A stretch of 64,000 nucleotides of DNA from Acidocella sp. (GTDB lineage: Bacteria; Pseudomonadota; Alphaproteobacteria; Acetobacterales; Acetobacteraceae): positions 1 through 64,000 of the forward strand of contig JAMFRU010000111.1 of assembly GCA_026224875.1 (NCBI GenBank), in the 5' to 3' direction. Both the position numbers and the translations under genes were made by a program. The notes below the pieces were generated by a model, which saw only the letters and a program-made list of their open reading frames with translations, searched no databases and was not told the origin of the DNA. How positions within the stretch are numbered: the first letter of the stretch is position 1; the number at the start of each line of letters is the position of its first letter. Shown piece by piece: positions 1,801-20,256 of the stretch.

Positions 1801-2298
1801 TTACTGCGTCTTGGGCGGCCGGGCTGCAATCACCTCGATTTCCACAAGCCAGCCGGGATTGGCCAGAGCCGCCACCTGGAAGGCTGACCGCGCCGGCAGG
1901 TCCGGCTGCGTCTTGGTACCGAAGAATTGCGTCCATGCCGCCTGCAACCCCGTGAAATCGAGCTTGCCGCCCTTGGCCTTGTCGCCGGCGAGGTAGACAT
2001 GCACCGCGACGACATCGCTATAGGACAGGCCGAGCCCCTGCAGTGTCGCGCCGATCTTTGTCAGTGCACTACGCGTCTGCGTCTCGGTATCGCCATACTC
2101 ATGCGGCGCGTTGGGCAGAGGGTCCGCGCCGATGCCGCTAAGATAGACCGTGCTGTCCCCCGCAGGCACCTCCACAGCCAGCGCAATGGGGAATTTGGCG
2201 CCATTGGGCAACGGCGTGCGCAAAGGCTGCGCGGCGGCCGCGTGGGTGAGGGCGACGCCCGCCAGCAGAGTCAAAAATCCGGCCGTGGAAATACGCAT
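1801..2298 (-). CDS. Exported RidA/YjgF family enamine/imine deaminase
   Basis: This is a 165-residue RidA-family protein with an N-terminal signal peptide (hydrophobic residues 6-20, likely cleavage around AAAAQ at 21-24). RidA proteins hydrolyse reactive enamine/imine products to ketones and ammonia. The conserved arginine that binds the substrate carboxylate is present in PARSAF (R137), with the following acidic segment VEIEVIA at 152-158. Cytosolic RidA proteins are about 130 residues, and the extra length here is the export signal. It is the last gene of a minus-strand unit after an amine oxidase and a cytochrome c. This suggests that it clears imines made in the periplasm. Confidence 0.85.
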   Translation of the reverse strand: MRISTAGFLTLLAGVALTHAAAAQPLRTPLPNGAKFPIALAVEVPAGDSTVYLSGIGADPLPNAPHEYGDTETQTRSALTKIGATLQGLGLSYSDVVAVHVYLAGDKAKGGKLDFTGLQAAWTQFFGTKTQPDLPARSAFQVAALANPGWLVEIEVIAARPPKTQ

Positions 2299-2323
2299 GA
2301 AATATCCTTCCTATTGTAATAAT

Positions 2324-2755
2324 TTAGAACCCGCCAGCGTAGAGCTTGCCTGGAATTCTGGCGGCCTTCACCTCGGTCGGCGACACCGGCCCGGCGAAAT
2401 GATTGCCGAAATTCTGCCGCACATAATTCAGCACCCCGGCGATCTGATCATCGCTCAGAATCCCGCCCAGCGCCGGCATGGCGCCACGCCCGTAGAGCAC
2501 GACGAAAATCGGGTAGGCATGTGCAGCAAGATGCTTGTTGCCGGCCAGTGGGGGAATTGCCGCCGCCCCCACCGCGCCGCGTGCATCTTCCATATGGCAG
2601 GCCTGGCAGAGATTGGCATAGACAGTAGCGCCAGACGTTGATTGTGCCGTCGGCAGCGTGCCGGTCTGCGGCCCTGCATTATCGGCCATGGCCGCGGCAA
2701 AGGGAAGTGCGAGGGCAACGGCACCGAGGAGAATTTTCGAGAATTTCATGGTCAT
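2324..2755 (-). CDS. Exported c-type cytochrome (class I, single haem)
   Basis: This 143-residue protein has a signal peptide (residues 1-24, AAAMADN cleavage region), one haem-binding motif CQACH (50-54) and a probable axial methionine in GRGAMPAL (M93). The class I cytochrome fold is further supported by the LSDDQIAGVLNYVRQNFGN C-terminal helix. The start at 2755 was chosen because its ATG overlaps the stop of the upstream oxidase (TAATG), which implies coupled translation, and because it leaves an intact signal peptide. An upstream in-frame start at 2830 would add 25 low-complexity residues. It probably accepts electrons from the coupled flavin amine oxidase. Confidence 0.88.
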   Translation of the reverse strand: MTMKFSKILLGAVALALPFAAAMADNAGPQTGTLPTAQSTSGATVYANLCQACHMEDARGAVGAAAIPPLAGNKHLAAHAYPIFVVLYGRGAMPALGGILSDDQIAGVLNYVRQNFGNHFAGPVSPTEVKAARIPGKLYAGGF

Positions 2756-4344
2756 TACCCCGCCACCGCCCGTTGATGCAGCCGCGTTACGGCATCGAGC
2801 GACGACAGCAGCGCCCCCTCCTGCCAGCATCCGACATAGGATGCATGTTCACCGGCGAGCACGATCCGCCCATCGAGCGAAACGAGATTCTGGTAATGAT
2901 CCTTCCTCGTCTGTTCAGTCCAGATCGCGCAGCAGCCGAGGCTCCACGGCACACGGTTCCAGGCGACGGCAACGCCGTTGTCGAATTCCGCTCTATATTG
3001 CGGATGCAACGCCGCACCCTGGTCAAGAGCTGCCCGTATCCGCTGCGCCGGCGGCAGGCCCGCGATGCGGTAGGCCTTGCCGCCGAAACTATAGGCGCCC
3101 AGCAGCACCGCCTTGCCGCCCGACTGATAACCATGGTTGGGATAGGCGATCGTACTGATCTCCTGATCCGTATAGCTGATGCCGCCGAAAATTCCCTCAT
3201 CCTCCTCCCAGAATCGGCGCTTGAATTCGAGCCCGATTTTCAGCGAGGTGGCATAAGGCACCGCCTGGATGGCCGCTTGCTTCGCCGGGCTCACCTGGAT
3301 CTCGATCTGGCTGAGCACCGAGAGCGGGATGGTGACCACCGCAAAATCCGCCTGCGCCTGTTTGACGGCGCCACCGTTATTGTGGTCCTCATACGTCACC
3401 GTCACACCTTTATCATCCTGCGTGATCTTCGTGACCTTGGCGTTATAATCGATAAGATCCTGCACCTGCTTAGCAAAACCCTTGCCGATCTGGTCCATGC
3501 CACCCACCGGCTGGAACAACGTGGTCTGCATCTCGTAATTCGCATTCGCTGCCAGCGCATGCCACAGCCCGGAACGGATCAGCTCGTCGCGTGGCAGAAT
3601 ATCGGATGGCACAGGCGCGCCATTCACCCCGCCTGAAGGGTCCTTGGCGTAGCCGCGGAAATTCGCACTTTCATCGCCCTTGGCATAGGCGAGTTGGTCG
3701 TTCAGCCCGCCCCAGCCGCGCAGCGCATCGATGATGGCATCGCGGTCCGCCTTCGTCGCCGGCTGGTCGAGATGCTTCTGGTTGATGCTTTTGGCGAGCA
3801 ACTCGGCAACATGCCCCTGAAAATCCGCCGCTACCGCGCGGTAGCGTTGCGGCTTGCCGCCGTAGGCAGCAGAGTTATGCAGCAGCGCGTTGTAATTAAC
3901 CTGCACGAACGGCTCCAGCGCGATGCCGAATTGCTTTGTATAATGCAGCAAGGCGCGATGGTGGTAGGGAATGCGCCACGGCCCCGGATTGAGATAATTG
4001 CCCGGCGCGAACTGCACATTCTGCGTGGCGCCGCCAAGTTCAGTATAGGAGTCGCCACCGCGCAGCGACCAGTTTCGGCCGCCGGCGCGATTCTGATATT
4101 CGAGAATCTGCACCTTATAGCCTGCGTTTCTCAGCTCATAGGCCGCCAGCATGCCGGCAAGCCCCGCCCCCAGCACCAACACGCTGGCCCCGGGCTTGGC
4201 CCCCGATAAATTGGGCGGGCCCGCGAAATCCGATTCCGCGGCATGCGCAATGCCCGTCATGGCTTGATAGAGCGCGCTGCTACCGGCAGCAAGGCCGATC
4301 ATCGTCAGTAATTGCCGCCGCGTCGTTCCAGGCTGAAATACCAT
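2755..4344 (-). CDS. Tat-exported flavin monoamine oxidase family protein
   Basis: This protein of about 529 residues belongs to the FAD-dependent amine oxidase family. A twin-arginine signal (TTRRQLLTMIG, R9-R10) indicates folded export to the periplasm. The dinucleotide motif GAGLAG (59-64) followed by AGGRNW (87-92) binds FAD. The C-terminal IVLAGEHASYVGCWQEGALLS is the family's second FAD motif. The start at 4344 places the RR close to the N-terminus. An in-frame start at 4389 would add 15 residues. The stop overlaps the start of a cytochrome c gene, and an exported RidA follows. Nicotine oxidoreductase NicA2, a known relative, reduces a cytochrome c rather than oxygen, so a dehydrogenase role is likely here. 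The amine substrate is unknown. Confidence 0.88.
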   Translation of the reverse strand: MVFQPGTTRRQLLTMIGLAAGSSALYQAMTGIAHAAESDFAGPPNLSGAKPGASVLVLGAGLAGMLAAYELRNAGYKVQILEYQNRAGGRNWSLRGGDSYTELGGATQNVQFAPGNYLNPGPWRIPYHHRALLHYTKQFGIALEPFVQVNYNALLHNSAAYGGKPQRYRAVAADFQGHVAELLAKSINQKHLDQPATKADRDAIIDALRGWGGLNDQLAYAKGDESANFRGYAKDPSGGVNGAPVPSDILPRDELIRSGLWHALAANANYEMQTTLFQPVGGMDQIGKGFAKQVQDLIDYNAKVTKITQDDKGVTVTYEDHNNGGAVKQAQADFAVVTIPLSVLSQIEIQVSPAKQAAIQAVPYATSLKIGLEFKRRFWEEDEGIFGGISYTDQEISTIAYPNHGYQSGGKAVLLGAYSFGGKAYRIAGLPPAQRIRAALDQGAALHPQYRAEFDNGVAVAWNRVPWSLGCCAIWTEQTRKDHYQNLVSLDGRIVLAGEHASYVGCWQEGALLSSLDAVTRLHQRAVAG

Positions 4345-4826: not shown

Positions 4827-7286
4827 ATGGGAGCAAAAATGCGGCATTTCATTACGTATTCACGCGCCGCCACAACGCGCGCCAAAAAAACTGATCATTA
4901 TTTATTCAAACGCTTTCTGCTTTCAACCATCGCTGTTTCGGCACTCTCCGTTGAGGCCGCACATGCTCAATCCGTAAGCAACCCGCCGGCTGCCACCTCG
5001 CCTGCCCTGAATGACATCATCGTCACCGGCACGCGCGAAACCGGAACCAAGGCGCGCACCAGTGCCACGCCGATTCAGGTCATCTCTGGCCAAGCTTTAG
5101 AGAAGACCGGCGAGGTGACGCTGCGCGACGCGCTGCAGAAACTCGCTCCCTCAATCGCCCGGCAGGTGATGGGTGGCGACACGGCGAATCTGACGGATGT
5201 TCTCACCATTCACGGTCTGAGCCCGAATCACGTTCTTGTGCTGGTCAACGGCAAGCGGCGCCATACCACAGCCAATGTACAGCTCGATCCCGGACCGCAG
5301 CAGGGCGCCACCGGTGTCGATATCGATCTAATCCCGGTCAGCGCGATCGACCATATCGAAGTCCTGCTGAGCGGCGATTCGGCCCAATATGGCTCAGACG
5401 CCATTGCCGGCGTCATCAACATCATCCTGAAATCATCGGATCATGGCGGATCGGTGCAAGCCAATGCCGGCAAATATTATGCAGGCGATGGTTTTTCCCG
5501 CAACTTCTCGGCGAATGTCGGAACCTCGCTCTTCGACCACGGCTTCGTCAATCTGAGCGGCGAATATGCCGGCCAGGACCATACCTACAGATCCGGCCCC
5601 GATCCGCGCACCGGCTATCTCGACAACAAGATCCTGGGCGACCCATCCTATAACCGCGAGCTGTTTTCCGTGAACACCGGGTACTATTTCCCGGATGGCG
5701 TTGAGGTCTATGGCTTCGGCACCTATGGCCATCGTGATGCGAATACCTATGAAAACTATCGCCTGCCCTCGGTATTGACGAGCACGGTCACCGGCCTGCC
5801 AGTCTTCCCCGGCGGCTTCTCCCCGCAAGAAACGCTTTCCGAAGATGATTTCTCCACGACCGTGGGTGTCAAAGGCGATAATCTGTTCAACTGGCATTGG
5901 GATGTCAGCTCAACCTATGGCGCGGATTACGATAATATTGGCCTGATCAACTCTGCCAATCCATCCCTTTATGATGCGACCGGCTATACGCCGACCAGTT
6001 TTCATATTGAAAACCTCACCAACACGGAATGGACCAACAATCTCGATCTCTCCCGGCCGTTTAATGTTCCGTTTCTGCCGGCACCGGTTACCGTGTCCTG
6101 GGGTTTGGAGCACCGTCTCGATTCCTATAAGATCGCCGCGGGTGATGCGGATTCCTATTATGGTGGCGGTGCCCAGGCACTGCCCGGCCTGCAATCCTTT
6201 AGCGCCGGTGCGCATTTCCGCAATTCCGAGGCCGGCTATCTCGACCTCGGCACGAAACTAACGCCGCAATGGCATGTGGATGTCGCCGGGCGCTTCGAGC
6301 ATTATTCCGATGCCGGGAATACCTTGAACGGCAAATTCACCACACGCTATGATTTCAACCCGCAGATCGCCGTGCGCGGCAGCATCGGCACGGGCTTCCA
6401 GGCCCCCACTCTGGCCGAGGAATATTATACCAACCTCAACGTCTCCCCCACCGGTGCCAGCGGGCAGCTCGCTCCCAATTCCGCCGTCGCCAAAAGCCTG
6501 GGGTCCCTGCCGCTCAAGCCGGAAAAATCCACCAATTACGATGTCGGCTTCGTGCTTAATCCTCTACCGGCCCTCAACTTCACAGCGGATGCCTATCAGG
6601 TGGACATCAGCAACCGCGTAGTGGATGGCGGCACGGCCTATGGCGCCACCGCCATCGCCGCATTATCGGGTGCCGGCGTCACTTTGCCGGGCGGAATCGA
6701 CACGGCCGATGTCTCCGCCAGCTATTTCATCAACGGCGCCAACACCAGAACCCGCGGCGCGGACATTACCGGCGATTACCTTCAGGATTTGCAGGACCAT
6801 GGCAGCATCAACTGGAGCCTGGGCACGAATATCAACGATACCGAGATCACCAGCGTGAAGAACAACGCGCAAGGTACGCCGGCACTCAACGCGCAGCAGC
6901 GTTCCTATCTCACCTCGACCACGCCGAAATTCAAAATCCTCCTGGGTGCCGATTGGGAAAGCGAGAAATGGGGTTTCGTGTTGAACGAGACGATCTATGG
7001 CCCCACCTCGGATGATCTCACCTATTTCGCGGCCGGCCCCAACCAGTATTCATCGAGCGTTTTCTACCACTTTACCAACCCTACGGCCTACACCACGGAT
7101 ATAGAATTGCGCTACAGACTGACGCCGCATCTGGAACTCGCAGGCGGCGCCAATAATCTCTTCAATGCCTATCCGAAGGAAGTCCCGCTCGCCAACCAGT
7201 ATCTCGGCACCAAATACGATACCGCGTCTTCCCAGATCGGGATTGACGGCGGGCTGTATTATGCACGCGTAAGATACGTGTTCTGA
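4827..7286 (+). CDS. TonB-dependent outer membrane receptor
   Basis: This 819-residue receptor carries an extended signal peptide ending near AAHAQ (about residue 48). Next come a TonB-box-like segment (NDIIVTGTRE) and a plug domain with the SGDSAQYGSDAIAGVINIIL motif. A long beta-barrel follows, closing in YYARVRYVF with a C-terminal aromatic residue. It moves bulky or scarce ligands across the outer membrane using TonB/ExbBD energy. ATG codons at 4827 and 4839 are both possible, the second with GGGAG five bases upstream. It lies beside a periplasmic amine oxidase unit and upstream of two peptide-type ABC importers, so it may feed either one. The ligand is unknown. Confidence 0.92.
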   Translation: MGAKMRHFITYSRAATTRAKKTDHYLFKRFLLSTIAVSALSVEAAHAQSVSNPPAATSPALNDIIVTGTRETGTKARTSATPIQVISGQALEKTGEVTLRDALQKLAPSIARQVMGGDTANLTDVLTIHGLSPNHVLVLVNGKRRHTTANVQLDPGPQQGATGVDIDLIPVSAIDHIEVLLSGDSAQYGSDAIAGVINIILKSSDHGGSVQANAGKYYAGDGFSRNFSANVGTSLFDHGFVNLSGEYAGQDHTYRSGPDPRTGYLDNKILGDPSYNRELFSVNTGYYFPDGVEVYGFGTYGHRDANTYENYRLPSVLTSTVTGLPVFPGGFSPQETLSEDDFSTTVGVKGDNLFNWHWDVSSTYGADYDNIGLINSANPSLYDATGYTPTSFHIENLTNTEWTNNLDLSRPFNVPFLPAPVTVSWGLEHRLDSYKIAAGDADSYYGGGAQALPGLQSFSAGAHFRNSEAGYLDLGTKLTPQWHVDVAGRFEHYSDAGNTLNGKFTTRYDFNPQIAVRGSIGTGFQAPTLAEEYYTNLNVSPTGASGQLAPNSAVAKSLGSLPLKPEKSTNYDVGFVLNPLPALNFTADAYQVDISNRVVDGGTAYGATAIAALSGAGVTLPGGIDTADVSASYFINGANTRTRGADITGDYLQDLQDHGSINWSLGTNINDTEITSVKNNAQGTPALNAQQRSYLTSTTPKFKILLGADWESEKWGFVLNETIYGPTSDDLTYFAAGPNQYSSSVFYHFTNPTAYTTDIELRYRLTPHLELAGGANNLFNAYPKEVPLANQYLGTKYDTASSQIGIDGGLYYARVRYVF

Positions 7287-8831: not shown

Positions 8832-10472
8832 TCAGGCAGCGGACGAAACCAGACGGCGTCCGGGGACGGATTCAAGCAGTTGCCTTGTGTAGGGGCTTTG
8901 CGGCGCGGACAGGACCTGAGCGATCGGCCCCTGTTCCACGATGGTTCCGCGCCGTAGCACAAGAAGCTGGTGAGCAATGCGCGCAACCGCCGCCAGATCG
9001 TGCGAGACCAGCACATAGCTGACGCCCAGACGCTCCTGCAATTCGATCAGCAGATCGAGAATCTTGGCGCTGACGGAAGCATCAAGCGCCGAGACGGGTT
9101 CATCAAGAAACAAAAGATCGGGTTTGAGTGCAAGCGCGCGGGCGATGATGGCACGCTGCAGCTGCCCGCCCGAAAGTTCGCGCGGCCGGCGGGTAAGGCA
9201 TGACGCCGGCAAATGCACGATATCGGCCAACCGCCGCGCGGCTGCATCGAGTTCCGCCCCTTTCGCCAACTTGAATGAAACCAAAGGCTCGACGATGCTC
9301 TCAAAAATGGTGAGGCGCGGATCCAGCGAGGCATACGGATTCTGCTGCACCAATTGAACCCGTTGACGGAGTGGGCGGAACTGCCGCTCCGTCATACCGC
9401 TGATCTCCTGACCTTCAAAAATCACTCTGCCGCGGGATGGTTTCTCCAGTCCCAAGGCCACGCGCAATATCGTTGTTTTGCCCGACCCCGATTCGCCGAC
9501 GATCGCCATCGTCTGGCCGGCGCGTACGGAGAAACTGACCTCTTCCAGTGCTGCGAACTGCCGGTCGGCGCTGCCGCGCGGCAGGGTAAAATATTTGGCG
9601 ACACGGTCGAACGACAATATTTCAGGCGTAAGCGGCACATCGAGATGGCGGACAGCAAATCCGCCATCTCTACTCAGCGCAGGTGCGGCCGCGATCAGCG
9701 CACGCGTGGCTTCGCTGGCGGGGCCCGAAAATATGCGTGCCGGCGTTCCTTGTTCGACGATCCGTCCGGCCTGCATCACCAGAACACGGTCGGATCGGTC
9801 TGCCGCCACCCCAAGATCATGCGTGATCAAAAGCAGTGAAATACCACGCTTGGCTACCAACCCATCAAGATGGTCGAGCAGCCGTTTCTGCACGGTGGCA
9901 TCGAGCGCGCTAGTTGGCTCGTCGGCAATCAGCAGATCGGGATCGCCAGCCAGCGCAATGGCGATCAATATCCTCTGGCGCATGCCGCCCGAAAGCTCGT
10001 GCGGATATTGCCGCGCCCGCAGCACGGGATTGTCGATCCCGACCTGCTCCAGCAGGTCGAGCACATCGGCGTCTATCCCGCGGGTGCGCCGGCCTTTGGC
10101 CTGGATCAGCGCTTCGGCAATCTGCCTGCCGTTGCGGGTGGTGGGGTTGAGCCCCACCATCGGGTCCTGCGGCACCAGCCCGATCACCTTACCCCGCAGC
10201 GCCCGCCGCCGCCGTTCGGGCACGTGCGCCACATCCTCTCCGTTCACCAGAATCTGCCCAGCCGTGATCCGGGCATTCGGAGACAGCAATCCGATCAGGG
10301 CGCCGGCGATGGTCGATTTGCCTGAGCCGGATTCGCCGACGATCGCGAGCCTCTCGCCTCTACCGATCGCAAGGGTTACGTCATGCAGCACCTCGTTGAG
10401 CTGGCCTGCGGCCGGGTAGGCAATGCGCAGGCCGCGGATTTCGACGAGATTATCGGCCGGAGGGGGGGCCAT
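8832..10472 (-). CDS. Dipeptide/oligopeptide-type ABC transporter, fused double ATPase
   Basis: This 546-residue protein contains two complete ABC ATPase domains, equivalent to DppD and DppF fused. Walker A motifs GESGSGKST (46-54) and GESGSGKTT (327-335), signatures LSGGM (161) and LSGGQ (434), and Walker B segments LLIADEP and LLFLDEP are all intact. The start at 10472 lies two bases after the upstream permease stop. Longer in-frame starts would run into that gene. It is the last gene of a four-gene minus-strand operon (binding protein, two permeases, ATPase) and powers import across the inner membrane. The first half lacks the Cys-rich oligopeptide C-terminal extension seen in the second system. 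Confidence 0.93.
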   Translation of the reverse strand: MAPPPADNLVEIRGLRIAYPAAGQLNEVLHDVTLAIGRGERLAIVGESGSGKSTIAGALIGLLSPNARITAGQILVNGEDVAHVPERRRRALRGKVIGLVPQDPMVGLNPTTRNGRQIAEALIQAKGRRTRGIDADVLDLLEQVGIDNPVLRARQYPHELSGGMRQRILIAIALAGDPDLLIADEPTSALDATVQKRLLDHLDGLVAKRGISLLLITHDLGVAADRSDRVLVMQAGRIVEQGTPARIFSGPASEATRALIAAAPALSRDGGFAVRHLDVPLTPEILSFDRVAKYFTLPRGSADRQFAALEEVSFSVRAGQTMAIVGESGSGKTTILRVALGLEKPSRGRVIFEGQEISGMTERQFRPLRQRVQLVQQNPYASLDPRLTIFESIVEPLVSFKLAKGAELDAAARRLADIVHLPASCLTRRPRELSGGQLQRAIIARALALKPDLLFLDEPVSALDASVSAKILDLLIELQERLGVSYVLVSHDLAAVARIAHQLLVLRRGTIVEQGPIAQVLSAPQSPYTRQLLESVPGRRLVSSAA

Positions 10473-10474
10473 CG

Positions 10475-11401
10475 CTACAGTTCCTCGATAGTGCGGGCAA
10501 TGTGGTTCAGGCTGAAGACGACAACCGCCACGAACAATCCCGGAATCAACGAAAGCCATGGCGTGGTCATCAGGAAATTGCGCCCATCGGCGATCAGCGT
10601 GCCCCATTCCGCGGCCGGTGGTGCCGCGCCGAAACCGAGGAAACTGAGCCCGGCCGTCGCCAAAATGGCAAAGCCGAAATCGAGCGTGGTCAGCACCGCG
10701 ACGGGCCCCCAGCTATTGGGCAGCACATGGCGCAGCAGAACACTGAACCATCCGGCCCCGCCCAGTTTCGCGGCCTCGACATAGGGCAGAATTTTGACGC
10801 GCAGCACCTCGGCGCGGGTTGTGCGCGCGAAGCCGGGTATGATGCCGAGACCCACCGCAATAGCAACAGGAATGGTCCCAAAGCCGATGGCCGTCACGAG
10901 CGCCAGGGCAAGTAGAAGGGGCGGCAATGCCAGCATCACGTCGACGGCCCGCATGATCACCTCGTCGGCCAACCCGCCAAGGTAACCGGACAGCACGCCG
11001 AGCGTCAGCCCCACTGTCAGGCCAATCCCCACCGCGATCAGCGCCGCCGCAACCGAAAGCCGCGCACCGAAAACGACGCGCGTGTAGAGGTCGCGGCCCA
11101 GATCATCCGTGCCGAACCAGTGCGCCATGCTGGGCGGCAGAAATTTATCGGCTTCCGAGGTGGCATAGGGGTCATAACCCGTGAGCAATTGCGGCCAAGC
11201 AGCGGCAAGCAGCACGAAGGCGATGAGCCCGGCCCCCAGCAGAAAGCCGGGGCGCGCCAGCAGCGGCCGGAGTGTTACGGCGGTGCGTTTGAAGCGGCTG
11301 GGCCGCAGCCGTGGCACGCCGCCGGAAACTGGCGCATCGGCCACGCTCTCCAAAACCGGTGCCGGCACCGGCGTCTCTTCGAGATCGCGGATGCTCGACA
11401 T
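10475..11401 (-). CDS. ABC transporter permease, DppC-like
   Basis: This permease of about 308 residues is of the DppC/OppC type. It has a cytoplasmic Pro-rich N-terminus, a first membrane span near residues 52-70, and the family motif FGTDDLGRDLYTRVVFGAR in the periplasmic loop. A BPD-transporter domain follows, with the EAAxxGGAGWFSVLLRHVLPN coupling loop that contacts the ATPase. Its ATG overlaps the upstream permease stop (TGATG). A GTG one codon earlier is also possible. It forms the heterodimeric channel with the DppB-like protein encoded upstream. Confidence 0.92.
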   Translation of the reverse strand: MSSIRDLEETPVPAPVLESVADAPVSGGVPRLRPSRFKRTAVTLRPLLARPGFLLGAGLIAFVLLAAAWPQLLTGYDPYATSEADKFLPPSMAHWFGTDDLGRDLYTRVVFGARLSVAAALIAVGIGLTVGLTLGVLSGYLGGLADEVIMRAVDVMLALPPLLLALALVTAIGFGTIPVAIAVGLGIIPGFARTTRAEVLRVKILPYVEAAKLGGAGWFSVLLRHVLPNSWGPVAVLTTLDFGFAILATAGLSFLGFGAAPPAAEWGTLIADGRNFLMTTPWLSLIPGLFVAVVVFSLNHIARTIEEL

Positions 11402-12351
11402 CACGTCACCCTGGGTGTGCGGGTGATGCGCGGATCAAACACGGGATAGAGCAGGTCAACGATGAGATTGATCACGACAAAGATCGCTGCCGCCAGGGTA
11501 ACGATGGCCAACACCACGGGCATATCCTGCCGTAGCACGGCCTCCTGGGCGAGGCGGCCGACACCCACCCGTGCGAACACGGTTTCCACCAGTACGGCTT
11601 CAAACACCAGATTGCCGATCTGCAGGCCGATCAACGTAAACACCGGCAGCAGCGCGTTGCGCAACACGTGACGCGCCTGGACCTGGCCCCGGCTCAACCC
11701 CTTGGCCAGCGCGGTGACGATAAAGGGCTCCCTCCAGACATCGCCGAAACTGCGCAGCAGCACCTGCGCGAAGGTGGCACCGCTGGGAATGGCGAGCGTC
11801 ACGGCAGGCAGGATCAGGCTCTGAATCCCGTCGTTGCCGGTGGCGGGGAACCAGCCGAGATCGAAAGCGAAGATCTGGATCAACAGCAATCCGGTCCAGA
11901 ACACCGGGGTGGAAAGCCCCAGCGCCGGCAGGCGTGTGAGTGCCTGCCGCAGCGGCCGCCAAGTGACGAGCGACACGGCATAGGCAAAGCCGCAGCCAGC
12001 CAGCACCGACAGCACCACAGCACTCCCGGCGAGCTCGAGCGACGGCGCTGCCCGCGCGAACAGGAGCTGGCGGATTGGGTCGTTATCTGCGAGCGAGCGG
12101 CCAAAATCACCCTGCAGGTAACCGCCGAGCAGCGAAAAATAATGTGCGACCACGCCCTGATCGAGTCCATATTGCGCCCGCAGCACATCCAGCTGCTGTG
12201 GCGAGAGCGAACCTGGCTGTATCCCGGAGGCGCCGAGCATAATCGACAATGGATCGCCGGGCAGCAGGTAAAGGATGAGATAGGTGACCGTGAAGGCACC
12301 CCACAACACCAGAAATGCCTGTCCGAGCCGTGATAAGATGTACCCGGTCAT
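11401..12351 (-). CDS. ABC transporter permease, DppB-like
   Basis: This 316-residue permease of the DppB/OppB type starts with the characteristic YILSRLGQAFLVLWGAFTVTYLI span, followed by LLPGDPLS and a periplasmic loop ending RSLADNDPI. The coupling loop is TALAKGLSRGQVQARHVLRNALLP. About six membrane segments are expected. It overlaps the binding-protein gene by four bases (ATGA) and the DppC-like gene by one base. Co-translation and a 1:1 membrane complex are therefore likely. Confidence 0.93.
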   Translation of the reverse strand: MTGYILSRLGQAFLVLWGAFTVTYLILYLLPGDPLSIMLGASGIQPGSLSPQQLDVLRAQYGLDQGVVAHYFSLLGGYLQGDFGRSLADNDPIRQLLFARAAPSLELAGSAVVLSVLAGCGFAYAVSLVTWRPLRQALTRLPALGLSTPVFWTGLLLIQIFAFDLGWFPATGNDGIQSLILPAVTLAIPSGATFAQVLLRSFGDVWREPFIVTALAKGLSRGQVQARHVLRNALLPVFTLIGLQIGNLVFEAVLVETVFARVGVGRLAQEAVLRQDMPVVLAIVTLAAAIFVVINLIVDLLYPVFDPRITRTPRVT

Positions 12352-13985
12352 CGTTTGATCTCAATGTCGTTGAACGAGGCGAAGCCTTCGTCTGTCCAGG
12401 TGAAGCCCTGCACATTCTTCGCCACGGCGACCTGCCAGATGCGTTCGTAGATGGGGAAGGCAACCCCCTCTTTGATGAGCAGGTCCTGCAATTGGCCGTA
12501 GGCCGCGGCACGCTTGTTCGTATCGGTGGTAATCAGCCCGGCGTCGAAAAGCTGCTCCGCTTCGGCGAGGTCCGCCGGGTCATAGGCATCGAGGGCCAGT
12601 TTTGCCTGGAGGGCGAAACGCGGATCGAGGAAACTCTGCAGCACTGCGGGATCGCCGCGCGTCAAATAGGAGCCGATAAGATCATAATTTCCGTGGATGA
12701 TATCCGAAACATAAGTGCCGGGCACAACCACGGTGATCTTGAGGGCGATTCCCACTTTGCGTAGCTGGTCCTGCAACAGCTCATCGCCGGGCGATTGGGC
12801 TTGCGCGACCTCCTCCAGAGCCAGCGCTCTGCCGTTCTTATAGCGATAGCCATCCTGGCCCAGCTTCCAACCCGCCGCATCGAGCAACTGCGCGGCACCA
12901 TGCGGGTCATAGGCAAGATTCTGCTTTTCCGATTTGAAATAGGGCGTCGTCCTGTCGAGCACGCTCTCCACCACGGGAAATTGCGCATCGTAGATCGTGG
13001 CGGCGTAGCCTGGGCGGTCGATGGATTTTTGCAGCGCAAGCCGGACCGCTGGGTCGGCGAGAAGCCGGCCGGCGCTGGTATTGGGAAACAGATTATAGGC
13101 AGGCCCCGGCAAAGAGCGACTATAGATCGTGGCACCATGCGACTTCAACAGGCCTGATTCGGTGTCGGAAAACGGCAGACGCGGCCACACGATATCGATA
13201 CTGCCCTGTACGAACGCGCCGTCGCGCACATATTGCTCGGGAACATAGCTGACGAGGATCTTGTCGATATGCGCCTCGCCCGGATTGGTGACGGCCTTGG
13301 AGGGCCAGGCGTAACCCTTGCGCTTGATGAGGGTCAGCCCGACCGCGGGCACGTAACTTTGCAGAATGAAGGGGCCGGTGCCGACGATGGCGCCGCGGGA
13401 ACGCTGCTGCGCCGTCAGCGCATAGGAGGCGGGGGCCAGAATGGCGAGGTTGGTGGTGGAGGTGGCCTGCAGGAAGGCAGCGTTGGGACGCGAAAGCACG
13501 ATGCGGACGTGCTGATCGTCGATCACATCCGCATGGGCGTAGCCTGAAAGATAGGTGGCGCCGAACACGCCCGGATTTTTCACCGTCTCGGCCTCATCGG
13601 AATCGAAGGCGATTTTTACTGCCTGGGCATTGAATTTTTCGCCATCGCTGAAGGTCACGTCGTCTCGCAAGGTAAAAATATATTGCAACCCGTCCGGGCT
13701 GATCTGCCAAGTTTTCGCGAGCCAGGGAATGATTTCGCCGGTATCGGGATTCTGATCGGTCAATGATTCGACGACATTGCGCAGCACGACCCGATGCTCG
13801 ATCCAATAAACCTGAAACGGATCGAGACTTACGAGGGTTGTGTTGTCGCCGGCGAAGGCAATTCTGAGCGTATTATCATCGGCGCTCGCTTTCCGATGGC
13901 AAGCAGTCAGTACCAGTGGGGCGAATGCCAGCGCGGCTATGCAGATATATTTGAACCAAGAGTGTTTTCTGCAATTCACGCGCAA
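12348..13985 (-). CDS. ABC transporter substrate-binding lipoprotein, family 5
   Basis: This 545-residue extracytoplasmic binding protein belongs to the SBP family 5 (peptide, nickel and opine class). The N-terminus is a lipoprotein signal: basic start, hydrophobic residues 13-25, lipobox LTAC with lipidated C29. The conserved SPDGLQYIFTLRDDVTFSDGE and VGTGPF motifs define the fold. It captures the ligand in the periplasm for the two permeases and double ATPase encoded downstream. Lipid anchoring is less usual for Gram-negative binding proteins, and the second system in this window uses a Tat signal instead. The ligand is not predictable. Confidence 0.92.
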   Translation of the reverse strand: MRVNCRKHSWFKYICIAALAFAPLVLTACHRKASADDNTLRIAFAGDNTTLVSLDPFQVYWIEHRVVLRNVVESLTDQNPDTGEIIPWLAKTWQISPDGLQYIFTLRDDVTFSDGEKFNAQAVKIAFDSDEAETVKNPGVFGATYLSGYAHADVIDDQHVRIVLSRPNAAFLQATSTTNLAILAPASYALTAQQRSRGAIVGTGPFILQSYVPAVGLTLIKRKGYAWPSKAVTNPGEAHIDKILVSYVPEQYVRDGAFVQGSIDIVWPRLPFSDTESGLLKSHGATIYSRSLPGPAYNLFPNTSAGRLLADPAVRLALQKSIDRPGYAATIYDAQFPVVESVLDRTTPYFKSEKQNLAYDPHGAAQLLDAAGWKLGQDGYRYKNGRALALEEVAQAQSPGDELLQDQLRKVGIALKITVVVPGTYVSDIIHGNYDLIGSYLTRGDPAVLQSFLDPRFALQAKLALDAYDPADLAEAEQLFDAGLITTDTNKRAAAYGQLQDLLIKEGVAFPIYERIWQVAVAKNVQGFTWTDEGFASFNDIEIKR

Positions 13986-18645: not shown

Positions 18646-20256
18646 ATGCTGACGAGACGTGACTTTGCGACGTTGATCACCGGCGCGGCATTCGTTGCAG
18701 GCGCCCCCACGGCCAGGGCCGACACCACGGGCAGCACAACGGGAAGCACGCTGACCGTGGCCTTCGACGGCGCGTCGGTGCCGAGTTTCGTGCTCGATCC
18801 GCATAATTGCCGCTTCGCCCCGCAGGCGCGCGTGTTACGTTCGATCTTCGACAATCTCGTGGTGCTGCGCGAGGACCAATCGGTGGGACCATGGCTTGCG
18901 ACCGCCTGGGAAATCTCGCCGGACCGGACTCAATACACCTTCACGCTGCGGCAGGATGTCACCTTCCACGACGGCACTCCATTGAACGCCGCGGCCGTGC
19001 AGGCAAATTTCGACCGCATTTTAAACCCCGCCAATGCTTTGCAATCCTTGTCGCAGATCGGCCCATACACCGGTGCTACGGTGCTCTCCCCGTTTCAGGT
19101 GCGCCTGGAGTTTTCAGCGCCCTTTGAGCCGTTCCTGCATAATTTATCCACAACCGGCCTGGCCATCGCCTCGCCCGCGGCTGTGCAGAAATACGGCAAG
19201 GCCTTCGGCCAAAATCCCGTCGGCACCGGCCCGTTCAAATTCACCAGCCTCACCCCGGGCACGCAAATCCGGCTGGCGAAAAACCTTGCCTATCAATGGG
19301 CCCCGGCTGGTGCCGCCCATCCCGGCCCGGCTTTGCTCGACCAGCTGATCTTCGCCGATGTGCCGGAGCAACTCACCCGCGTATCAGCTTTGCAGAGTGG
19401 CCAGGTGCAGGTGGCGGATTTAATCCCCGCGCAGAATATTGCCGCGTTCAAGGCGGATCCGGGCTTCACCTTCCAGCAGAAGGAAATGCTCGATACGACC
19501 TATGCGCTGATGCCCAATGTAGCCAAGGCACCATGGAATGACCTGCAGATTCGCCAGGCGCTGAAATTGTCGCTGGATATCGATCTGATCGTGCGGGTCA
19601 TCTATTTCGGCACCATCCAGCGCGCCTGGTCGCCGCTTTCGCATCAATTGTTCGGCTCGGCCGAGCAGGCGCTCACGGATAGCTGGAAACCGGACCCGGC
19701 GCAGGCACGCGCCATTCTCGATGCCAAAGGCTGGGTGCCGGGCGCGGACGGCATCCGTGTGAAGAATGGGCAGCGCTTGTCCTTGAGCTTCATCGATACC
19801 CAGGGCAACCGCGAGCAGCGGCTGGATGTGATCGAACTGGTCCGCCGGCAGCTCAATGCCAGCGGCATCGACCTGGTGATCGACAGCCAGCCGCCCGGTA
19901 ATTATCTCAAAAAACTCGCCGATAACGACTATGACCTTGCCGCCGGCGCGCAATACGCGGCGGACCCGGATGTGCTGCGCTCTTTCTTCGTGCCCGATGC
20001 CCGCTCGCAGATGGAGGCTTTGAATGAAAACGATCCCGTACTGACACAGCTTCTTGTCGCGGGTGCCGCGGAAGGCGATTCCGCCAAGCGCGCCAATTTA
20101 TATGTGCAGGCGCAGAAGCGGATCATCGATCAGGTCTATCTCATCCCAATCTATGTGCTGCGCTATAATCTCGCGGCCGCGGTCAATGTGCAGGGCATCG
20201 CGCTCGACGCGCACGGCTTTCCCAATTACCACGGCGCCGCATTGGGCAGCGGCTAG
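18646..20256 (+). CDS. ABC transporter substrate-binding protein, family 5, Tat-exported
   Basis: This 536-residue SBP family 5 protein has a twin-arginine signal, LTRRDFATLITGAAF (R4-R5), and likely cleavage near TARAD (about residue 26). Family motifs include SPDRTQYTFTLRQDVTFHDGTPLN, NPVGTGPFKF and QIRQALKLSLDIDLI. It delivers its ligand to the two permeases and the double ATPase encoded immediately downstream. The ribosome binding site is GAGGGG, nine bases upstream. The first importer's binding protein is a lipoprotein, whereas this one is exported through Tat and is probably soluble. The ligand is unknown. Confidence 0.92.
   Translation: MLTRRDFATLITGAAFVAGAPTARADTTGSTTGSTLTVAFDGASVPSFVLDPHNCRFAPQARVLRSIFDNLVVLREDQSVGPWLATAWEISPDRTQYTFTLRQDVTFHDGTPLNAAAVQANFDRILNPANALQSLSQIGPYTGATVLSPFQVRLEFSAPFEPFLHNLSTTGLAIASPAAVQKYGKAFGQNPVGTGPFKFTSLTPGTQIRLAKNLAYQWAPAGAAHPGPALLDQLIFADVPEQLTRVSALQSGQVQVADLIPAQNIAAFKADPGFTFQQKEMLDTTYALMPNVAKAPWNDLQIRQALKLSLDIDLIVRVIYFGTIQRAWSPLSHQLFGSAEQALTDSWKPDPAQARAILDAKGWVPGADGIRVKNGQRLSLSFIDTQGNREQRLDVIELVRRQLNASGIDLVIDSQPPGNYLKKLADNDYDLAAGAQYAADPDVLRSFFVPDARSQMEALNENDPVLTQLLVAGAAEGDSAKRANLYVQAQKRIIDQVYLIPIYVLRYNLAAAVNVQGIALDAHGFPNYHGAALGSG

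Follow-up and report, generated by a model that had tools for sequence, protein, structure and literature searches.

A probable periplasmic L-amino acid deamination unit of the lao-cccA-ridA type in an Acidocella genome

What might a bacterium accomplish with a flavoenzyme, a c-type cytochrome and a Rid protein that are encoded side by side, each behind an apparent export signal? The question is raised by three genes at positions 1801-4344 of a 64,000-nucleotide stretch of the genome of an Acidocella sp. (GenBank assembly GCA_026224875.1, contig JAMFRU010000111.1, positions 1 to 64,000; hereafter the window). The original prediction, made from the sequence alone, was a periplasmic route in which a NicA2-type amine dehydrogenase passes electrons to the cytochrome and an exported RidA clears the resulting imine. 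Comparative analysis indicates that the genes are a real, conserved and probably horizontally acquired member of the lao-cccA-ridA operon type already described in Gluconacetobacter diazotrophicus. We consider it likely that they form a periplasmic unit for the deamination of L-amino acids, with electrons passing mainly to the neighbouring cytochrome c rather than to O2. The features concerned are as follows.

2755..4344, minus strand: flavoenzyme (oxidase) of 529 amino acids with a twin-arginine leader; Pfam PF01593 Amino_oxidase, 1.1e-57; R124, K369 and Y418 are candidate catalytic residues
2324..2755, minus strand: monoheme c-type cytochrome (CQACH), predicted to be exported; Pfam PF13442 Cytochrome_CBB3, 1.9e-12
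1801..2298, minus strand: Rid3-like imine deaminase of 165 amino acids, predicted to be exported; Pfam Ribonuc_L-PSP, 4.5e-19
4827..7286, plus strand: TonB-dependent receptor, divergent from the oxidase, start codon uncertain; Pfam Plug and beta-barrel

The order of the unit is oxidase, cytochrome, Rid, all on the minus strand. The oxidase stop codon TAA (2757-2755) has one base in common with the first ATG of the cytochrome gene (2755-2753), giving the overlap TAATG, and the cytochrome stop is separated from the Rid start by 25 nucleotides in which a AGGAAGGA-like ribosome site can be read. The sequence thus bears out the earlier description of three codirectional genes with export signals, the first two overlapping, with the leaders judged by eye and by a crude rule.

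Flavoenzyme, Rid protein and export signals

The closest solved relative of the flavoenzyme is the L-amino acid oxidase (LAAO) of Rhodococcus opacus (roLAAO; 2jae, E=4.6e-82 in a phmmer search of the PDB). An AlphaFold2 model (mean predicted local distance difference test score, pLDDT, 81.8; predicted template modelling score, pTM, 0.81) matches 2jae with a TM score of 0.95 by target length and 0.86 by query length, a root mean square deviation of 1.9 and 34% identity, and the 44 best-ranked chains of the fold search were all L-amino acid, glutamate or lysine oxidases. Both R124, which aligns with Arg84 of the 2jae sequence, and K369 are kept in 124/124 homologues, while position 418, aligned with Tyr371, is Tyr in 85, Phe in 38 and Asn in 1. 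We take Arg84 and Tyr371 to be the PDB numbers of these residues, and their roles in roLAAO to include carboxylate binding. Sequence and model together point to an L-amino-acid-oxidase-like flavoenzyme for which L-amino acids are the likelier substrates, and because it is of LAAO rather than NicA2 type, a 2-imino acid would probably be the product. NicA2-type catalysis was rejected on fold-match ranking rather than on a direct alignment with NicA2: that enzyme is absent from the best 50 matches listed, which roLAAO leads. With both the closest sequence and the modelled fold being those of roLAAO, the earlier amine label has lost its support.

The best PDB matches of the Rid protein, 9bkc (PFL1385, 1.7e-31) and 9bka (PSPTO3006, 8.4e-30), also top its fold search, where identity is 47-49%; the model has a pLDDT of 79.9 and falls below 50 over residues 1-26. 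R137, E153 and I38 are invariant in the Rid alignment A6, where I154 is listed as well and E155 is nearly invariant. Rid3 proteins are described as keeping the catalytic Arg and Glu of RidA and as having Ile in place of its Tyr (PMC4433059; this and the other papers are cited here from parts of their text). By sequence, the protein has the Rid3 residue pattern, with Arg and Glu kept and I38 at the position of the RidA Tyr, an equivalence taken from the alignment. PFL_1385 and PSPTO_3006 are themselves Rid3 proteins, and with either of them less semicarbazone formed from iminoarginine and from imines produced by an LAAO (PMC5619798). Among the NCBIfam matches listed (for the oxidase, 25 of 34), all three products of the unit fell below the model cut-offs, the Rid falling below those of TIGR00004 (Rid family) and RutC.

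For signal peptides we relied on inspection by eye and on a crude home-made rule. The oxidase N-terminus TTRRQLLTMIGLAAG is Tat-like (Tat, twin-arginine translocation), with TTRRQLL followed by a hydrophobic stretch, and those of the cytochrome, MKFSKILLGAVALALPFAAAMA, and the Rid, MRISTAGFLTLLAGVALTHAAAAQ, appear Sec-like by eye, the Rid leader covering approximately residues 1-23. By the crude rule, 109/113 cytochrome-paired and 10/11 unpaired oxidase homologues have a Tat-like start. A signal-like N-terminal stretch precedes the domain in 22/25 Rid3 proteins, a set that includes the Rid of this locus, versus 2/30 other Rids (p 6.4e-10), one rule being used for both groups. The controls were the 30 Rid loci left after removal of six Rid3 (L007, L282, L283, L285, L286 and L287). 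In its first form the rule also fired within the domain of the control Rids L003 and L006, and it was tightened before these counts; a signal count of 44/44 came from the loose form. Export of all three proteins is thus suggested by their leaders, and the Rid comparison adds support.

The Rid3 proteins lacking a signal-like start are a fragment in genome G368 and two proteins (L199 and L200) whose sole in-frame start lies 12 residues before the domain. The oxidases partnering the latter (L230 and L235) have charged residues after the RR motif, yet pass the crude Tat rule. Given the leaderless Rids and these charged residues, both partners may be cytoplasmic, having moved together. No cytochrome lies beside these two oxidases. 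Four other Rid3 leaders (L179, L186, L196 and L197) resemble lipoprotein signals, and we assume that the motif in them implies a location outside the cytoplasm. Signal-like leaders are also present on two Rid proteins outside Rid3, L267 and L280 (RR occurs in one of them), which may mean that Rid proteins acquired export on more than one occasion.

Conservation and genomic setting

Conservation was counted from the oxidase and, separately, from the Rid. The close set consisted of the best 80 of 458 confirmed oxidase relatives in genome contigs and is biased toward close kin. At 80/80 of these loci, a cytochrome c gene on the same strand is no more than 139 nucleotides from the oxidase domain. 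Counted over the 84 oxidases that they contain, 83 have the cytochrome and 31 a same-strand Rid within 1.3 kb; a further 11 have a Rid no more than 6.5 kb away, and the remaining 42 lack one at that distance. At E 1e-40 or better, the oxidase was found in 27/398 genomes of the phylum, which together with two relatives from the class gave 32 oxidases in regions of mostly ~13 kb. A cytochrome stands beside 23 of the 32 and a Rid within 6.5 kb of 25, and the cytochrome is present for 20/20 oxidases of at least 43% identity. Overall, 113/124 oxidases are paired with a cytochrome.

At three distant oxidases with a cytochrome the protein in the same place is a different, diheme one, the monoheme cytochrome being replaced by a c4-like protein (L229, L234 and L236); our count of one heme per protein used a narrow stretch and missed the second CxxCH of these three. 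On a 64-row tree (quick search, support from the Shimodaira-Hasegawa-like approximate likelihood-ratio test, SH-aLRT, only), the cytochrome trait changes 2 times, Rid proximity 15 times and receptor proximity 16 times. Cytochrome-paired and unpaired oxidases differ at 15 positions, which we leave uninterpreted: with only about two changes of the trait on the tree, kinship alone could produce them. Two loci (L224 and L227) have the oxidase between two cytochrome c genes, one on either side, with no Rid3 found in the genome. On the Komagataeibacter xylinus plasmid pGX5 (L036), transposase genes adjoin a short gene for a cytochrome and a Rid frame whose annotation lacks a leader, with no oxidase annotated; this is perhaps a decayed unit.

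The Rid model (A4) was built from 20 Rid cores without leaders, taken from Rids near oxidases, and was run over the same 398 genomes, from which nine of its rows had come. The cut of 105 bits was chosen after the gap had been seen, the next genome scoring 65; the ten genomes with scores of ~59 to 65 bits were taken to hold other Rids and left out. At or above the cut, Rid3 occurs in 25/398 genomes, one of them holding the short fragment mentioned above. The oxidase is present in 24/25 Rid3 genomes and Rid3 in 24/27 oxidase genomes (Fisher p 3.7e-34, uncorrected for kinship), the exceptions among the latter being G132, G196 and G380; with the nine model-donor genomes excluded, the oxidase is present in 15/16 Rid3 genomes (p 3.2e-23). 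The conserved association for which a search across genomes had been proposed accordingly holds in both directions of counting, and chance neighbours are rejected, the arrangement being far from chance by these counts.

A homologue of the divergent receptor, whose start lies ~480 bp from the oxidase, occurs within 6.5 kb of the oxidase in 15/29 genomes (14/28 excluding this locus). The number expected from genome-wide counts is 0.97, or 2.9 when every first-look candidate is counted, a reworking made because only 34 receptor candidates were scored in six of the 29 genomes. In G188 the neighbour is the sole receptor homologue found in the genome, and the order oxidase, receptor, Rid recurs in G048, G407 and a Sphingomonas plasmid; in the close set, 17/80 loci have a receptor homologue. 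These occurrences make the receptor a probable fourth member of the unit. A second receptor copy, 59% identical, lies elsewhere in the same genome (G000:C117:52447-54759).

Among 37 genomes of the genus, the oxidase is complete only in this one, the next same-genus match being partial and 29% identical, and homologues occur on large plasmids of other genera. A remnant of an IS630-type transposase gene, apparently frame-broken, occupies 1223-1745 on the plus strand and ends ~55 nucleotides past the Rid stop codon; its first piece matches HTH_Tnp_IS630, and its second, without a Pfam match, was judged from sequence. Because of the lone full oxidase in the genus, the adjoining insertion sequence remnant and the plasmid homologues elsewhere, the unit is likely to be accessory and horizontally moved.

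Scans for promoters and terminators returned sites no commoner than in shuffled sequence, and repeats around the unit are short and scattered. Genes of a peptide-type ATP-binding cassette (ABC) transporter and a second substrate-binding-protein-like gene lie nearby (8832-13985 and 18646-20256), with flavin-monooxygenase-like and nitroreductase-like genes between them; Pfam was applied to 8832-10607 and 12348-13985, and the remainder of this region was assigned from sequence.

Electron route and alternative readings

In the route that we propose, the TonB-dependent receptor would probably bring an amino acid, or a compound bearing one, into the periplasm, as its linkage suggests. The Tat-exported enzyme, which would carry flavin adenine dinucleotide (FAD), would convert an L-amino acid to the 2-imino acid, a step suggested by its fold, its nearest enzyme and the conserved carboxylate ligand. 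Reduced FAD would then be reoxidised by the adjoining cytochrome c and not mainly by O2, as the near-invariant pairing in close relatives and the measured behaviour of other flavoprotein amine oxidoreductases with a Tat signal and a c-type cytochrome (CytC) lead us to expect. The cytochrome could pass its electrons to a CuA cytochrome c oxidase, the subunit II gene of which is present in this genome. Hydrolysis of the imino acid, yielding 2-oxo acid and ammonium, would fall to the exported Rid3 in the same compartment, the activity being published for Rid3 relatives and the compartment being the predicted one. The cell may use the products or release them, as happens with indole pyruvate and auxin in Gluconacetobacter. 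The comparisons give good support to the earlier periplasmic route of flavoenzyme, cytochrome c and exported Rid, apart from its amine substrate; the receptor had been left out of it.

This genome encodes both a CuA-type cytochrome c oxidase subunit II (CNQICGLNHDAM) and cytochrome c1. Electron sinks were also surveyed in 21 relatives' genomes with the unit, hand-picked from the close loci (L037-L103; G456-G476) and mostly Acetobacteraceae. Cytochrome c1 is present in 21/21. Matches to COX2 carry the CuA motif in 11 genomes, with one match lacking the motif in each of the other 10, and FixO was found in 3/21, one of them among the ten without the CuA motif.

Several observations weigh against cytochrome-linked deamination as proposed here. 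Neither CuA subunit II nor FixO was found in 9/21 of these relatives, genomes of unstated completeness in which these were the terminal oxidases sought; all nine are Acetobacter or Komagataeibacter that keep the unit's cytochrome and cytochrome c1 without a recognisable cytochrome c oxidase to receive the electrons. Among the distant oxidases (at most 40% identity), 9/12 have no adjoining cytochrome, and most of these nine have a Rid nearby. All 124 homologues retain the lysine that adjoins flavin N5; this lysine is uninformative on oxidase versus dehydrogenase, since its presence is reported in both kinds of enzyme (PMC12224317). A Rid is absent within 6.5 kb at 41/80 close loci (present at 39/80), so it is not obligatory locally, and a Rid in the same operon everywhere is rejected. 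For six of the 41, the locus breaks off no more than 1.3 kb from the oxidase, so that a neighbour could be cut off, and in 28 genomes searched from among the 41, Rid3 lies elsewhere in 27, one of these being only partial; 20 such distant Rid loci comprise 14 in another oxidase-cytochrome-Rid unit and 6 beside a TonB-dependent receptor. The published lao mutants are polar on cccA and ridA (PMC5053998) and so do not separate the roles of the single genes. Our literature search found no biochemistry on this LAAO branch, and it found no paper on an L-amino acid dehydrogenase coupled to a cytochrome.

Some of these observations would suit a periplasmic, O2-using LAAO that makes H2O2, ammonium and keto acids, with the cytochrome serving as a peroxide scavenger or in general respiration: the flavoenzyme here has an oxidase as its closest solved relative and retains the N5 lysine, and both the distant relatives without a cytochrome and the nine genomes without a recognisable cytochrome c oxidase are readily accommodated. 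We nevertheless judge such an enzyme unlikely, given the cytochrome beside the oxidase at every close locus, its replacement by a diheme protein at three distant ones, and the mostly slow reaction with O2 of flavoprotein amine oxidoreductases (FAOs) that combine a Tat signal with an adjacent CytC (PMC12224317). Rather unlikely, too, is a reading in which receptor and oxidase constitute an uptake or activation route for a specific amino-acid-containing ligand, such as a siderophore or peptide, with catabolism secondary. The receptor does recur beside the unit, and a Fur box is predicted upstream of a lao-containing set in G. diazotrophicus (PMC9368920), but 14/29 genomes have no receptor within 6.5 kb, no ligand is known, and that Fur set consists mainly of nuo genes. 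A NicA2-like amine or alkaloid dehydrogenase, with the Rid acting on a non-amino-acid imine, is very improbable despite the Tat and cytochrome layout that it would share with nicA2-cycN-pnao (PMC12224317), in view of the LAAO-type fold matches described above, among which NicA2 was not listed, and of the arginine aligned with roLAAO Arg84 in every homologue.

Cytochrome-linked L-amino acid deamination remains the reading that we favour. More tentatively, with somewhat less than an even chance in our estimation, Rid3 may be, rather than one more cytosolic group of imine deaminases, an exported group bound by selection to exported L-amino acid dehydrogenases, which with a dedicated TonB-dependent receptor would make a four-part deamination module running from the outer membrane to the respiratory chain. 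In many acetic acid bacteria this module would hand electrons to a cytochrome c in the absence of any recognisable cytochrome c oxidase, which would point to an electron exit not yet described. If Rid3 is periplasmic, the control of imine damage would operate outside the cytoplasm too, away from the pyridoxal-phosphate enzymes that are the known targets of such damage, and faster release of oxo acid and ammonium, or protection of the dehydrogenase, would be the likelier role. The unit would link Rid3/amine-oxidase clustering, CytC-using flavoprotein dehydrogenases and bacterial auxin formation via lao-cccA-ridA, and for a widespread family whose members often bear the annotation 'flavin monoamine oxidase', for example in plasmid records, it predicts the class of substrate, the compartment and the electron acceptor.

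Relation to known systems

The nearest known system is lao-cccA-ridA of G. diazotrophicus PAL5 (GDI2456-GDI2455-GDI2454), in which Tn5 insertion in lao abolishes indole-3-acetic acid (IAA) formation and reduces the cytochrome and ridA transcripts, and where the cluster has been shown to be needed for conversion of Trp to indolepyruvate (IPyA) and IAA; ccm mutants are cited there as yielding 5% of IAA (PMC5053998). That study proposed in 2016 a periplasmic LAAO with a predicted Tat signal, assisted by cytochrome c and RidA, and mentions conservation of the cluster in Caulobacter and Xanthomonas (PMC5053998). The Acidocella unit has the same three genes on the same strand with close spacing and the Tat signal on the LAAO, and its oxidase shares 64-65% identity with the enzymes of six other Gluconacetobacter species. 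The systems differ in that the PAL5 study, in its available text, names a Tat signal for the LAAO only and not RidA export; the words 'TonB' and 'receptor' are absent from that text, and a receptor with this type of unit was not found in our literature search.

Genes for RidA, and sometimes Rid3, are known to cluster with FAD amine oxidase genes (PMC4433059), and 'periplasm' and 'signal peptide' are absent from the available text of that paper. PFL_1385 and PSPTO_3006 resemble the Acidocella Rid in the modelled fold match (47-49% identity) and differ in that 'signal' and 'periplasm' are absent from the text of PMC5619798 available to us. An exported Rid together with an LAAO is likewise not described in the parts available of papers on chitin oxidation with a RidA protein (PMC9537276) and nicotine degradation (PMC7688666), and Rid3 as an exported group was not found in a search outside of which most subscription journals lay. 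The earlier view that an exported RidA for such a purpose is not well described thus needs dividing: the three-protein hypothesis was already in print (PMC5053998), while for Rid3 export the view stands within that search.

The NicA2/Pnao-type dehydrogenases resemble this unit in pairing a Tat flavoenzyme with an adjacent Sec-exported cytochrome, the leader of ours being judged by eye. In a set of 2,911 sequences, a Tat signal plus adjacent CytC was found to predict dehydrogenase function; stopped-flow tests clearly supported this for clades 2 and 3 bar one mixed case, and in clade 1 the reaction with cytochrome was sluggish; one separate clade uses diheme c4 cytochromes, resembling three distant units here (PMC12224317). 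This flavoenzyme differs in being roLAAO-like, and 'RidA' and 'amino acid oxidase' are absent from the available text of that paper. Its likeness to roLAAO (2jae, 2jb1) lies in fold, 34% identity and the aligned Arg84 and Tyr371, whereas roLAAO is known as an oxidase and the Tat leader has no counterpart in the aligned stretch.

A eukaryotic parallel is LAO1 of Chlamydomonas, also cited in PMC5053998, a periplasmic or extracellular LAAO with a LAO2/RIDA partner that converts L-Trp to IPyA and IAA (PMC10805672, which in turn cites the bacterial cluster). It resembles the present unit in having an LAAO outside the cytoplasm with a RidA-type partner and differs in being algal and H2O2-producing, with no cytochrome named in the cluster in the text available. 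Set against these systems, the three-gene unit, the hypothesis of a periplasmic LAAO with cytochrome and RidA, and the Tat-plus-cytochrome predictor are already known; what the Acidocella locus adds looks modest, namely a probable role for Rid3 as a family of exported partners, the receptor as a likely further member, and certain hosts in which no terminal oxidase is recognisable.

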